From a virus, in the IMG/VR virus record IMGVR_UViG_3300018933_000009, positions 1-39,661 of that record: 39,661 bases of DNA; one strand, 5' to 3'. Position 1 is the stretch's first letter; every line of letters starts with the position of its first letter. The notes beneath the pieces were generated by a model. That model did not search any database. It worked only from the letters and a program-made list of their open reading frames with translations, and was not told the DNA's origin. This document shows positions 1 through 39,607 of this stretch, one piece after another. Made by a program: the position numbers and the translations under genes.

Positions 1-23
1 GTGCAACGAGCCGGAAATGAAAA

Positions 24-45
24 TGACCAGCGTTTCCGCTGGTCA
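24..45 (-). terminator. Intrinsic terminator downstream of tRNA-Arg (attL copy)
   Basis: A perfect 9-bp stem (24-32 with 37-45) closes a 4-nt loop. On the minus strand it is followed by a T-rich run (complement of 12-23). It lies just past the tRNA 3' end, so it is the tRNA terminator duplicated with the att repeat. Confidence 0.8.
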
Positions 46-56
46 GATGGGCTTTG

Positions 57-99
57 CGCCCCCGGCAGGACTCGAACCTGCGGCCAAGCGCTTAGAAGG
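57..99 (-). pseudogene. 3' fragment of tRNA-Arg left at attL
   Basis: This matches the 3' 43 nt of the intact tRNA at 39535-39607: part of the anticodon loop, the variable region, T arm and acceptor strand. The 5' half (acceptor 5' strand, D arm) is missing because the prophage starts here. It cannot make a functional tRNA. Confidence 0.9.
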
Positions 100-435
100 T
101 GTCACGCGGTTAGCGATGTGCTCACCTGCGTATTCGCAGGTCGCCTCAGACCAAACTAAGGAAAGGCGCTTGCCCTAAGATCTGCCCACTTTGGCGGGGA
201 GTCGATCCCCCGAATGGGGGGGGGCCGCCCCGGACCCACTGTAGGGCCCGGGGCGGCAGGGAGACCGCGGCTCCGCCATCCGGGCGGATAGGCGCCTCGC
301 GCGAGGGACCAACCGCAGCTCCCGCCTGTCGCGGCCCGAACGGTGCACGCCGCGCACCTGTCCGGTCCGCAAGATCACAAGATGCCTGGTGACACCAGGC
401 TGACACAGGATCACGCAGGTCACAGCGTTTGTCGA
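100..435. other. Gene-free attL-proximal stretch with hairpins
   Basis: I see no convincing gene here. It holds a 7-bp stem with a 4-nt loop at 124-141, a 10-bp GC-rich hairpin at 224-257 (arms 224-233 and 248-257), and the palindrome at 384-400. As phage DNA next to the recombination site it may carry integrase arm sites, but I cannot point to a specific one. The 224-257 hairpin could insulate the prophage end from host transcription. Confidence 0.6.
384..400. promoter_or_regulatory. 17-bp palindrome upstream of the XRE gene, candidate operator
   Basis: Two perfect 8-bp arms (GCCTGGTG and CACCAGGC) flank a single central base, ending 35 bp before the start codon of the XRE-type gene. Small XRE regulators commonly bind such dyads in their own promoter. 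The sequence is unlike the 18-bp operator of the right-end switch, so this would be a separate circuit. Confidence 0.5.
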
Positions 436-669
436 ATGCCAGCAGACCCGCCCGAGGCCCAGTTCCACCACGACGCGCAGCGCATCGGCCAGCGCATCCG
501 GGAGGTCCGCGAGGAGAAGACCCTCACCCAAGAGCGGGTCTTCCTGGCGGTGCCGATGAACCGCGCCCACTACCAGGACATCGAGGCCGGCCGGGCGAAC
601 CCCACCTTGCGGACGCTCTCCCACATCGCGCACGTCCTGGGGGTGCCGCTGTCCGACCTCGTCCGCTGA
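436..669 (+). CDS. Small XRE-family helix-turn-helix regulator
   Basis: The 77-aa product is nearly all one Cro/C1-type HTH domain: helices at about residues 15-70, with the recognition part around RAHYQDIEAGRANPTLRTL and the usual hydrophobic end LGVPLSDLV. It should bind DNA as a dimer. I chose the ATG at 436. The frame stays open upstream to 343, but the domain begins after this Met and the intervening residues look non-coding. No clear Shine-Dalgarno precedes it, so the message may be leaderless. It is the only rightward gene beside attL and is convergent with the zinc-ribbon genes, so it is probably expressed in the lysogen. Confidence 0.75.
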   Translation: MPADPPEAQFHHDAQRIGQRIREVREEKTLTQERVFLAVPMNRAHYQDIEAGRANPTLRTLSHIAHVLGVPLSDLVR

Positions 670-36766: not shown

Positions 36767-37090
36767 TCAGGCGGCGGGTGCCGTGCGGGCCTGCGCCAGT
36801 TCCGCCTGCACGCGGTTCGCCTTCGCCTTCTGGGCCATCTCCCGCTTGATGCGGCGGGCCTGCGCGGACTTCAGCGCCAGCGCCTGGTAGTGCGCCTTCT
36901 TCAGCGACGCCGCGATGCCGGCCAGCTCGGCCTCGGTCGCGCCCGGGTTCTGCTTGCGCGCCATATCGAGGAACCGGGTGTGGTGGCTAGCGCGCCGGGC
37001 GGCGGCGGTGCGGCTCGACCTGTCCGGGGTCTTCGCCCAGCTGATGTGCGCCGCGAGCCGAAGCTGCATCGTGCGCTCGCTCGTGTTCAC
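36767..37090 (-). CDS. Helical basic protein of phage/ICE early regions, 107 aa
   Basis: The product includes ERTMQLRLAAHISWAKTPDR, HHTRFLDMA and SLKKAHYQALALKSAQARRI. From memory, similar actinobacterial proteins (RARLAAH, W/SxxDR, HARKAH/Y-LALKSARARR pattern) lie near phage and ICE regulators; function unknown. GTG at 37090 follows GGAAGGGA and matches the usual N-terminus. It overlaps the regulator gene upstream by 104 bp. Confidence 0.7.
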   Translation of the reverse strand: MNTSERTMQLRLAAHISWAKTPDRSSRTAAARRASHHTRFLDMARKQNPGATEAELAGIAASLKKAHYQALALKSAQARRIKREMAQKAKANRVQAELAQARTAPAA

Positions 37091-37370
37091 GGAGGGTCCC
37101 TTCCTTGTCGGGAGCGCCCACGCCCGTGGGCGTGGGCATTGGGTCGGGAAAGAGGCGGTGGCGCTGTATGTCGACAACTCGGCATATGCGCTCGGCAACC
37201 TCCGTTGTGACCGAAGGTCGCTCACCGCTCAGCAGTGCGTGAATCTTGCTCTTGGAGACACCGACGGCTTCGGCGAGGGCTCGTATGTCGAGTGAGCCGC
37301 CGTCGGGCGCCCGGCGCATCAGTCCGCGCAGCAGGTCGCTGTCGGTCAGATGAAGCCGGTCATCGGTCAT
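36987..37370 (-). CDS. Leftward HTH regulator of the switch (Cro-like)
   Basis: The 127-aa product has an HTH at about residues 25-72 (SLDIRALAEAVGVSKSKIHA, LLSGERPSVTTEVAERICRV) followed by a short basic tail. The ATG at 37370 has GGAGG ahead. It is the first gene of the leftward early operon and divergent from 37619, so it fills a Cro-like place. Its last 34 codons overlap the following gene in another frame. Confidence 0.82.
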   Translation of the reverse strand: MTDDRLHLTDSDLLRGLMRRAPDGGSLDIRALAEAVGVSKSKIHALLSGERPSVTTEVAERICRVVDIQRHRLFPDPMPTPTGVGAPDKEGTLREHERAHDAASARGAHQLGEDPGQVEPHRRRPAR

Positions 37371-37387: not shown

Positions 37388-37521
37388 TGCCCACGATCGT
37401 GGACAGCTCCAGTAGAGCACACCGCTTAAGCGATGTCCACGATCGTGGGCAGGTCAGTAGGGGGTCAAAAATCGGACGTAACCGCAGCCCGGGGTCCCAT
37501 GCCTGCCCGTGATCGTGGACA
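37388..37521. promoter_or_regulatory. Switch operators O1-O3 between the divergent regulators
   Basis: Three copies of an 18-bp near-palindrome with core CCACGATCGTGG: 37388-37405 (TGCCCACGATCGTGGACA), 37434-37451 (its exact reverse complement) and 37504-37521 (two differences, at positions 6-7). They lie within the 248-bp intergenic region that must hold both promoters. The TGGACA end of O2 is itself a -35-like sequence for the leftward gene, 17 bp from TCTACT. Confidence 0.82.
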
Positions 37522-37618
37522 ATGTCACGCAGGCAAAAAAGGTTGTACGCCCTGACCTGCAATTTCGCGACCACATCCGGCTGAGGGTGTGGACTAGAGC
37601 GCCTGGAGAGGCGGAGGG

Positions 37619-37993
37619 ATGCCACAGCAGCGAGACGCACTGACCGAACTCGTGAAGGCGCATGTAGGCGCAGGACGCCGCATGTCCACGCGGGAGTTCG
37701 CTGCCGTAGCTGTGGACCCGGAAAGCGGCTGGGCGCCGAGCAAGAGCCTTGTTGCAAAGATCATCGCGGGTCAGGGGTACGACGTCACCCCTCAGCTCGT
37801 ATCCGCCATCTCCGTCGGCCTCGGTCTGGACCGCGAGATCGTCGCCGCCGCAGCGCACCTTCAGGTGATCGGATACACCGACGCAGAACTGTCTGGCGGC
37901 GCGCCGGCGAACCTGATCCGCACTCTCGACGCCGAGACAGAGGCGACCGAGAAGGCACGCTTGGTCGCCGAGCGGTGGGAGCGAGAGGACTAG
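37619..37993 (+). CDS. Rightward HTH protein of the switch, probable immunity repressor
   Basis: The 124-aa product has ALTELVKAHVGAGRRMSTRE and an HTH-like run GWAPSKSLVAKIIAGQGYDV followed by LVSAISVGLGLDREIVAAAA, then GYTDAELSGG and a charged C-terminal helix. Homologues, from memory, occur as regulators in Streptomyces prophages. The ATG at 37619 has GGAGAGG about eight bases ahead. As the rightward partner in the operator region it is the best candidate for the lysogeny repressor. Confidence 0.75.
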   Translation: MPQQRDALTELVKAHVGAGRRMSTREFAAVAVDPESGWAPSKSLVAKIIAGQGYDVTPQLVSAISVGLGLDREIVAAAAHLQVIGYTDAELSGGAPANLIRTLDAETEATEKARLVAERWERED

Positions 37994-37996
37994 TTG

Positions 37997-38012
37997 TCAC
38001 CCGATCGGGTGA
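37997..38012. promoter_or_regulatory. 16-bp perfect palindrome after the repressor gene
   Basis: TCACCCGATCGGGTGA starts 4 bp past the stop of the 37619 gene. With no loop it is better as an operator than a terminator, though an RNA hairpin followed by a GT-rich run is possible. The 37994-38179 stretch has no gene. Confidence 0.45.
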
Positions 38013-38126
38013 TTGGGTGTTTAGCCTGCGGGTATCTGGTGATCCGGTAGCTCGCTGTTGCCGTTGGTATGCCCTGTGCATTCGGCCCTGTGCGTCATAC
38101 AGTGATCAGGCCTCGCGCGTATCGAA

Positions 38127-38164
38127 CGTACGCACGATTTCGGCTGCCCGGAATCGTGCGTACG
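38127..38164. repeat. 13-bp inverted repeat upstream of the 64-aa gene
   Basis: Perfect arms CGTACGCACGATT (38127-38139) and AATCGTGCGTACG (38152-38164) flank 12 bp. It ends 15 bp before the GTG of the next gene, overlapping its leader. It could be an operator or a directionality-factor site near the integrase. Confidence 0.65.
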
Positions 38165-38179
38165 GGGAAAGGGGGTCTG

Positions 38180-38374
38180 GTGACAGTTGTGCGGGTGGAA
38201 CAGGTCGAACTCGACCGCGGCACTCCTGTGATGTACCGCGACTTTGGGAACGTCGTCCGACTCGCCCACGACCCTCAGCAGATACACGAGACCGCGGCAC
38301 TTGCGCTCCTGTGCATCCGGATGCCGCGGCTCGTAGGGAACATGCAGGTGCAGCACGTGCGGCCCGCCCGGTAA
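38180..38374 (+). CDS. Small protein next to the integrase, 64 aa
   Basis: GTG at 38180 has AGGGGG ahead. The product begins VTVVRVEQVELDRGTPVMYR and ends NMQVQHVRPAR; it looks like a small alpha/beta protein without a clear HTH. Position between the switch and integrase makes an excisionase or a regulator conceivable, but nothing in the sequence shows it. It ends at a bidirectional hairpin. Confidence 0.55.
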   Translation: MTVVRVEQVELDRGTPVMYRDFGNVVRLAHDPQQIHETAALALLCIRMPRLVGNMQVQHVRPAR

Positions 38375-38399
38375 CCCCCCACCCGAGCCGCATGGATAC

Positions 38400-38440
38400 G
38401 CCCCGGACACCGGTTCGCCGACACGAACCGGAGCCGGGGC
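38400..38440. terminator. Bidirectional terminator between the 64-aa gene and integrase
   Basis: A 7-bp outer stem (38400-38406 with 38434-38440) and an 8-bp inner stem (38410-38417 with 38424-38431), 6-nt loop, sit between two convergent stop codons. Confidence 0.8.
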
Positions 38441-38450
38441 GCACTACCGC

Positions 38451-39422
38451 TCAGCCCAGCCGATCAGCCGGTGACAGCCGGGCATGTGCCGACCGAGCCC
38501 GCTCGGCGCCGGCCGACGCCGCGTAGCGCGACAGCATCTGACGCGACCGCCAGCCGGTGATGCGCATCAGGTCGTCCTCGTTCCCGCCGTTCACCTTCCA
38601 CAGGTGGGCAAAGGTGTGCCGGAACTGGTGCGGGTGCAGCGGCTCGATCCCTGCCTCTGCACACCGCCGCTTCAGCAGCTTGTTCACGCCCGAGATCGTC
38701 AGCCGGTGCCCGTTGGCGCGGTCGCCCCACCACAGCCACATGTCCTCGTCGAGCGGTCGGCCCTTGTGTTTCGCCGCGGCCCGCAGGTACCGGTCGAGGG
38801 CAGCCGCGCAGGTGCGGCCGAACGGCACCGACCGCCACTTGTCACCCTTGCCGAGGACGCGTAGCACCATCATGTCGAGGTCGAGGTCGCCGACCCGACG
38901 CTCAGTCAACTCGCTGAGTCGAACGCCCGTGTCGAGGAACAGCATCAGGATCGCGGTGTCGCGGCGGTCGATGTAGCTCCGGCCCTTGCAGACCTTGAAC
39001 AGCGCCGCAAGGTCTTCCTCGGGGATGACGGGCACCTCGGTCTCGGGCACGGCCGGCGGCTTCATTGTCCGCATGGGGGAGCGGTCGATCTCCTCCTCGT
39101 CCAGCAGCCAGTTGAAGAAGGTCTTCAGGGCGCGGAAGTGCTGGTGTGCGTTCGCCGGGCTGGTCCGCTGGATCGTGGCGGCGATGTACGCCTCGATGTG
39201 CTCGCGGTGCACCTCGTCCAGGTCGGTCGGCGCGGGTCGGCCGGTGTTGCCGTCGTCGTCGGCGACGGGCCGGTACCCCTCTTCCGGGTCGAGGAGGAAG
39301 CGAGTGAACGATCTGACAGCGTTTCCGTAGATGCGGATGGTGTTGTCGCTCTTGTTCTGGGATTTCAGGGCGCGCAGCCAGGAGGCAGCCATCGGCCCGA
39401 TGTTGTAGCGCTCATCTGCCAT
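38451..39422 (-). CDS. int: Tyrosine integrase
   Basis: The 323-aa recombinase has an N-terminal SAM-like core-binding domain (about 5-115) and catalytic residues R168 (TGVRLSELTE), K192 (GKGDK), H265 and R268 (HQFRHTF), W291 in place of the second His, and nucleophile Y300 (MLSRYA). It catalyses integration into the tRNA-Arg gene 57 bp away at attR. Start is ATG at 39422. A copy of the switch operator overlaps the promoter region, suggesting control by the phage repressor. Downstream it is closed by a strong hairpin. Confidence 0.95.
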   Translation of the reverse strand: MADERYNIGPMAASWLRALKSQNKSDNTIRIYGNAVRSFTRFLLDPEEGYRPVADDDGNTGRPAPTDLDEVHREHIEAYIAATIQRTSPANAHQHFRALKTFFNWLLDEEEIDRSPMRTMKPPAVPETEVPVIPEEDLAALFKVCKGRSYIDRRDTAILMLFLDTGVRLSELTERRVGDLDLDMMVLRVLGKGDKWRSVPFGRTCAAALDRYLRAAAKHKGRPLDEDMWLWWGDRANGHRLTISGVNKLLKRRCAEAGIEPLHPHQFRHTFAHLWKVNGGNEDDLMRITGWRSRQMLSRYAASAGAERARSAHARLSPADRLG

Positions 39423-39428
39423 CGCCCC

Positions 39429-39457
39429 ACGATGCGCCCACGGTCGTGGACAGTCAA
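39429..39457 (-). promoter_or_regulatory. Integrase promoter region with fourth switch operator
   Basis: 39435-39452 matches the switch operator at 16 of 18 positions (CGCCCACGGTCGTGGACA). On the minus strand it fills the 17-bp spacer between a -35-like TTGACT (39452-39457) and a weak -10-like CATCGT (39429-39434). Binding would occlude polymerase. Confidence 0.65.
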
Positions 39458-39478
39458 GGCGCTTGCCCCTGTAGCGGT

Positions 39479-39577
39479 GTGCAACGAGCCGGAAATGAAA
39501 ATGACCAGCGTTTCCGCTGGTCAGATGGGCTTTGCGCCCCCGGCAGGACTCGAACCTGCGGCCAAGCGCTTAGAAGG
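39479..39577. repeat. attR: right copy of the 99-bp att direct repeat
   Basis: Identical to 1-99. It overlaps the 3' 43 nt of the intact tRNA-Arg gene and its terminator. The core crossover lies within this identity, probably in the tRNA segment (39535-39577), but its exact place cannot be set from one lysogen. Confidence 0.93.
39502..39523 (-). terminator. Intrinsic terminator of tRNA-Arg (attR copy)
   Basis: Same 9-bp stem and 4-nt loop as at 24-45, followed on the minus strand by a T-rich run. It lies 11 bp past the tRNA 3' end and is supplied by the phage. Confidence 0.8.
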
Positions 39578-39607
39578 CGCCTGCTCTATCCACTGAGCTA
39601 CGGGGGC
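39535..39607 (-). tRNA. tRNA-Arg (anticodon TCT)
   Basis: The 73-nt gene folds with a 7-bp acceptor (GCCCCCG with CGGGGGC), a D arm GCTC...GAGC, a 5-bp anticodon stem enclosing CTTCTAA (anticodon TCT, decoding AGA) and a T arm GCAGG-TTCGAGT-CCTGC. CCA is not encoded. The 3' half comes from the phage; the 5' half belongs to the host. Confidence 0.95.

Follow-up and report, generated by a model that had tools for sequence, protein, structure and literature searches.

An operator family shared by the lysogeny switch and the integrase promoter of a Streptomyces prophage, and its likely repressor

The locus described here raises the question of whether a single repressor may hold silent both the early lytic genes and the integrase gene (int) of a temperate phage. 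In well-studied phages, int answers to a control other than the repressor, such as CII in lambda, and switch regulation in the temperate phages of Streptomyces has been little studied. A preliminary description had noticed three 18-bp copies of one operator between two divergent regulators and a fourth between −35- and −10-like elements of int, and had suggested that one repressor could thus control immunity and integration. We have followed these sites in related phages and prophages, and have asked which of the two regulators is likely to bind them.

Operators at the switch and at the int promoter

The window, that is, the whole stretch of 39,661 nt analysed (IMGVR_UViG_3300018933_000009), corresponds to a nearly exact prophage of a soil bacterium, bounded by a 99-bp direct repeat, which covers the 3′ part of tRNA-Arg(tct) and the hairpin behind it (Table 1). 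Inward from the tRNA, the gene order is int, a small ORF and the two divergent regulators, separated by 248 bp. The leftward regulator heads the early lytic operon and is followed on the same strand by xis-like and recombination-type genes; the small basic ORF overlapping its 3′ end is kept next to it in nearly all relatives. A hairpin with 17-bp arms (94%), at 38127-38164, forms part of the leader of a small ORF (38183-38374), and relatives carry a different inverted repeat in its place.

Table 1. Coordinates of the features in the window
Feature	Position	Strand	Remarks
att direct repeat, distal copy	1..99	.	99/99 identity with 39479-39577
Motif B, opposite attP arm	112..121	-	
Motif C, GGGCAAGCGCCTT, opposite arm	163..175	-	
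Small basic ORF overlapping leftward regulator 3′ end	36767..37090	-	candidate directionality factor; phrog_2842 (unknown function), E 5e-7
Leftward regulator, 127 aa, HTH_31	36987..37370	-	Cro/MOR-like by position; Pfam HTH_31 E 1.7e-9; AF2 XRE fold
Operator O5, GCGCCCACGCCCGTGGGCGTGGGCA	about 37115..37138	+	two overlapping registers, inside leftward regulator CDS
Operator O1, TGCCCACGATCGTGGACA	37388..37405	+	over predicted start site of P_left
P_left, lytic promoter	37411..37439	-	TGGACA-N17-TCTACT, extended TGC; predicted
Motif B, inverted pair GCACACCGCT...AGCGATGTCC	37417..37438	.	in P_left spacer
Operator O2, TGTCCACGATCGTGGGCA	37434..37451	+	exact reverse complement of O1
Operator O3, TGCCCGTGATCGTGGACA	37504..37521	+	16/18
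P_right, rightward regulator promoter	37516..37544	+	TGGACA-N17-AAGGTT; predicted
Rightward regulator, 124 aa, XRE-type helix-turn-helix	37619..37993	+	proposed immunity repressor; predicted binder of O1-O5
int, tyrosine integrase, 323 aa, XerC/D-like	38451..39422	-	PF00589 E 1.2e-26; core-binding SAM-like domain from residue 14
P_int	39429..39457	-	TTGACT-N17-CATCGT; predicted
Operator O4, CGCCCACGGTCGTGGACA	39435..39452	+	16/18; fills −35/−10 spacer of int promoter
Motif C, int-side arm	39456..39468	-	overlaps int −35
Motif B, int-side attP arm	39473..39482	-	
att direct repeat, tRNA copy	39479..39577	.	99/99 identity with 1-99
tRNA-Arg(tct), integration target	39534..39607	-	same target in relatives having sequence beyond int

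Operators O1-O4 are 18-bp near-palindromes, three between the divergent regulators and one at the int promoter. Allowing up to three mismatches, they occupy the only four matching places in the whole window (six matches, the sites being near-palindromic), against 0.09 expected in shuffles. The positions first described are thereby confirmed, as is the reverse-complement relation of O1 and O2, whose starts lie 46 bp apart; the earlier description gave the four operators correctly, did not choose between the two regulators as binder, and lacked a fifth operator, O5, and a second motif, B. Beyond the four strong sites and the weak O5, the 39.7-kb window contains no further strong operator sites of the kind of genome-wide stoperators.

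The promoters are consensus readings on the aligned sequence. In the case of P_left, the predicted −35 (TGGACA, 37434-37439, minus strand) forms the end of O2 and the start point is covered by O1, the −35/−10 distance being 17 bp in the relatives inspected. The predicted −35 of P_right (TGGACA, 37516-37521) likewise forms the end of O3, with a spacing of 17–18 bp in relatives. Ahead of int, O4 on the minus strand fills the 17-bp spacer of TTGACT-N17-CATCGT, and the arrangement TTGACT-operator-CATSGT is retained with small variations in the O4-bearing relatives. As the −10 ends only 6 nt before the int ATG (5–7 nt in relatives having O4), the int mRNA is probably leaderless. From the position of O4 within the spacer it follows that int would be silent in a stable lysogen.

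IMG/VR, GTDB genomes and phage Kromp supplied relatives of the rightward regulator, and the family comprises at least 20 phages and prophages. In the aligned intergenic regions, O1, O2 and O3 stand out as conserved islands amid diverged DNA, spaced 46 bp (47 in L017) between O1 and O2 and 68–71 bp between O2 and O3, with O3 weaker and more variable than the other two. O4 is present in 13 distinct loci of Streptomyces phages and prophages (the window, L010, L011, L012, which equals L013 and L014, L015, L016, L018, L037, L038, L039, L045, L046 and L083), which supports the proposal that one operator family joins the switch and the int promoter; the sequences of L009 and L017 stop at the int start codon. 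No int operator above shuffles was found in the distant relatives L041, L051, L052, L055, L057 and L059, nor was an O4-type match found in L019. In two members of a distant clade, an operator copy is found in the int leader (L043, 15/18, 0/200 shuffles; L060, 13/18, 3/200 shuffles), and repressor control of int may therefore have persisted or re-emerged there in a different form.

Since the 13 phages and prophages retain the four sites in matching places and at nearly fixed spacing, we regard the operators as functional elements under selection. The operator core is a GC-rich palindrome, and a chance resemblance in GC-rich DNA might be invoked on that account, but the shuffle expectation together with conservation in the 13 loci rules out chance palindromes and leaves this explanation a negligible probability. 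It is also very improbable that O4 is an architectural element of recombination in the attP arm rather than a transcription operator. It lies about 27 bp from the att identity block, with motif C of the P′ arm on one side and int on the other, and is phage-side in free and integrated DNA alike, which could be read in this sense. However, there is no copy near the other arm, O4 sits exactly in a promoter spacer, and it is of the same type as the switch operators, to the point that in L038 it has the same altered centre as the O1 and O2 of that phage; the differently placed copies in the int leaders of L043 and, more weakly, L060 also speak against an arm site.

The regulator likely to bind the operators

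The rightward regulator has no match in Pfam, PHROG or NCBIfam. In its AF2 model only the helix-turn-helix part is confident (helices 24–30 and 42–49, pLDDT about 90; residues 108–124 fall below 50), and its structural neighbours, at middling Z, include the N-domain of TP901-1 CI, HigA, SinR and Stl. The protein has no recognisable C-terminal domain, so that any cooperativity would be hypothetical.

When all columns of the two regulators were ranked for covariation with several operator bases, the top column was S43 of the rightward protein, in the recognition helix, for base 6, and R25 of the same protein for base 2. In the model, R25 lies at the start of helix 2 and S43 at the start of helix 3, where XRE proteins usually make their contacts. 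On a tree built without the helix-turn-helix columns, S43T arises three times (L009, L017 and L041), each time together with a change of operator A6 to G, and T43 never occurs without G6; R25 is lost twice, and both times the outer TG has become CA (2/2 independent pairs). The pairs are too few for significance in an independent-pairs sign test (p 0.25 for base 6 and 0.5 for base 2). Three other G6 lineages (L021, L055 and L059) show other helix changes, and in L083 the G6 is found in O5 with S43 unchanged. The recognition helix of the leftward protein is unlinked to the operator changes in L009 and L017: in L009, which has a changed operator, the leftward helix is identical to that of L010, L012, L015 and L037, whose operators are unchanged. 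All this amounts to strong circumstantial evidence, not proof, that the rightward protein is the operator binder, and R25 and S43 are likely its specificity residues. The idea of a single repressor for immunity and integration thus finds support, as covariation points to one protein, the product of 37619-37993.

The next-ranked columns for base 6 were those of a linker in the leftward protein, and they led to the fifth operator. In the window alone O5 is weak, its two registers reaching 11.3 and 9.8 bits in the PWM with background up to 10.6. In the 25 loci compared, it stands directly after an ALFF-like motif and co-varies with the O1 of each phage; in L019, for example, O5 is CATCCACGGACGTGGATG and O1 is CATCCACGTCCGTGGATG, while L060 and L041 have CATCCCCGAATGAGGATG and CGTCCGCGGACGCGGACA, respectively, as O5. 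Across 13 representative lineages, paired O1 and O5 score 195 versus 153 when permuted (0/100,000 permutations); the control with the best match elsewhere in the CDS was unusable for L021. Because O1 and O5 match within the same phage, the linker residues encoded at O5 (PTPMGVG, SADGD, SMSMDMD) follow the operator.

A second motif in the attachment arms and the switch

Motif B (GCACAYCGCT), unrelated to the operators, has a single copy in either attP arm and two copies, inverted relative to each other, in the switch. The relatives in which both arms are available (L027-L033 and L083) keep it in both, and where the arm copy is altered (GCACGTCTGT in L052, GTACAGAGC in L055, GCACAGCG in L043) the switch copy is altered likewise, with p 0.0005 for the covariation over 8 representatives. 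As arm and switch copies change together, one protein probably binds both, and the sequence suggests a second, Cox/Apl-like protein. Int contains both tyrosine integrase domains, catalytic (PF00589) and core-binding (SAM-like), and no separate arm-binding domain was seen in the domain search, which makes it the less likely binder. When motif B was compared with protein columns, the top columns followed phylogeny in all three proteins, and none of the three was singled out. Motif C (GGGCAAGCGCCTT) resembles the core GGCCAAGCGCTTAG and overlaps the −35 of int, so that Int might regulate its own gene. In a group of metagenome and IMG contigs (L027-L032 and L083), both phage arms flank the att core, as in the attP of free or circular phage, and a third XRE-type ORF lies near the distal attP arm of the window (about 439-669, plus strand), with a similar ORF in L032, the attP contig of L016. 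In L071 (G707), a stretch immediately preceding the att core resembles the 5′ end of a second int, which suggests tandem elements at the tRNA.

The existence of motif B bears on whether the two regulators share the operators, as CI and Cro do in lambdoid phages. Both are XRE folds encoded on either side of the sites, and the evidence for the rightward protein leaves room for a second binder with a different preference; in lysogens the repressor of int would then be the rightward protein, and late in lysis it would be the leftward, Cro-like one. We consider such sharing unlikely, as the leftward recognition helix does not track the operator changes in L009 and L017 and motif B is available as a separate site for another protein; operator covariation is seen here with the rightward protein only. 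Much less probable still is that the leftward regulator alone is operator binder and repressor. The name 'immunity repressor' is carried by the lytic-side gene in the public annotations of Kromp and OnionKnight, and O1 and O2 lie at the promoter of the leftward gene itself. Nevertheless, covariation favours the rightward protein, L047 has the rightward gene and two operator-like sites without any leftward gene, and a repressor in this position would be co-expressed with the early lytic operon; with its gene at the head of an operon of xis-like and recombination genes, the leftward product is the less plausible candidate for maintaining repression. L047, L048, L061 and L062 carry homologues of the rightward gene in other gene contexts, with no leftward partner.

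Proposed circuit and comparison with known switches

We return to the rightward XRE protein as the probable immunity repressor, which would silence the leaderless int promoter together with the early lytic operon. From site positions, conservation and covariation in the sequence we infer the binding, repression, timing and motif B binder of the following model. A dimer of the repressor would bind TGYCCACGATCGTGGRCA at five places, O1-O5. Occupancy of O1 and O2 would cover the start site and the −35 of P_left and turn the lytic promoter off, whereas the weaker O3, covering the −35 of the repressor's own promoter, would make P_right self-limited. O5, inside the first lytic gene, may serve as a roadblock or as a cooperative partner, like OD in TP901-1, and O4, when occupied, would fill the spacer of the leaderless int promoter and turn P_int off. 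In the lysogen, the early operon and int would both be off; upon infection, with the repressor not yet made, or upon induction, both would come on together, allowing Int to act with early products in integration or excision. The leftward regulator, or else the product of the small ORF after it, would bind motif B at its copies in the two attP arms and within the P_left spacer; by acting on the att arms while lowering P_left, it would link excision with reduced activity of the lytic promoter. More tentatively, and with somewhat less than even confidence in the reading as a whole, the two sets of sites may interlock: the repressor would act on P_left and P_int, a Cox-like factor on P_left and the two attP arms, and one two-protein decision would set lysogeny, integration and excision. 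In this reading O5 would also have left its mark on the amino-acid sequence of the lytic regulator in whose gene it lies.

The switch appears to work like that of lactococcal phage TP901-1 (CI/MOR), with int added to the repressor targets. The likeness lies in the divergent regulators, the XRE fold of the N-domain and the topology of the OR, OL and OD operators (O1/O2, O3 and O5 here), OD being located in the distal part of mor (PMC7250872). The lytic promoter has two sites here and one in TP901-1 (PMC7250872), and the extra site at int is not a feature of that phage. In TP901-1, MOR also forms a complex with CI. TP901-1 CI, of about 180 aa, comprises an NTD, a dimerisation hook and a multimerisation CTD (PMC7250872), whereas the present protein has 124 aa and no recognisable hook or CTD. 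Since its repressor is without the C-terminal architecture of CI, we do not file this switch as a member of the TP901-1 type.

P2 Cox and coliphage 186 Apl are regulators that double as directionality factors. With them the locus shares a motif that is placed at the att arms as well as around the switch promoters, which implies one protein for both tasks, but those proteins have direct-repeat arrays 10–11 bp apart (PMC7498355), as opposed to a single motif B per arm and one inverted pair, and here the promoters are back-to-back (divergent). In P4 and KplE1, sites of the directionality factor overlap the int promoter (PMC7498355). Mycobacteriophage BPs gp33 (PMC4557955) is also a small repressor with an operator in a −35/−10 spacer and several promoters genome-wide; in our case, the sites are full 18-bp palindromes, the int promoter is a target, and attP is not inside the repressor gene, the att repeat 39479-39577 being about 1.5 kb from the rightward gene. 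One repressor with several sites is likewise found in the L5 stoperators and the phiC31 CIR sites, with 18–30 dispersed sites in those genomes (PMC4557955). The cluster A stoperators number dozens and are dispersed and asymmetric, in contrast to the five clustered palindromic sites (four strong, one weak) described here.

This is, then, a known kind of switch with new wiring, in which the repressor operator also stands on the int promoter; a literature search that took in few of the subscription papers found no immunity repressor placed on an int promoter. Through the proposed repressor, staying dormant and staying integrated would come under one control. The locus allows us to name candidates for the immunity repressor and for the residues that set its specificity, together with five operators and another motif common to att and switch. 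If the model is true, S43T should switch operator preference and O4 should decide the silence of int.

Genes 36–39 of Streptomyces phage Kromp (MH744420) include a homologous rightward gene (39%), the leftward gene and the next ORF. O1-, O3- and O5-like operators are present in Kromp, but its int faces the other way and is without an operator of the O4 kind. The gene annotated there as immunity repressor (gp38; L021 5438-5719) is a homologue of the leftward regulator, which suggests that the label has been given to the lytic-side regulator, gp37 being the likelier repressor.
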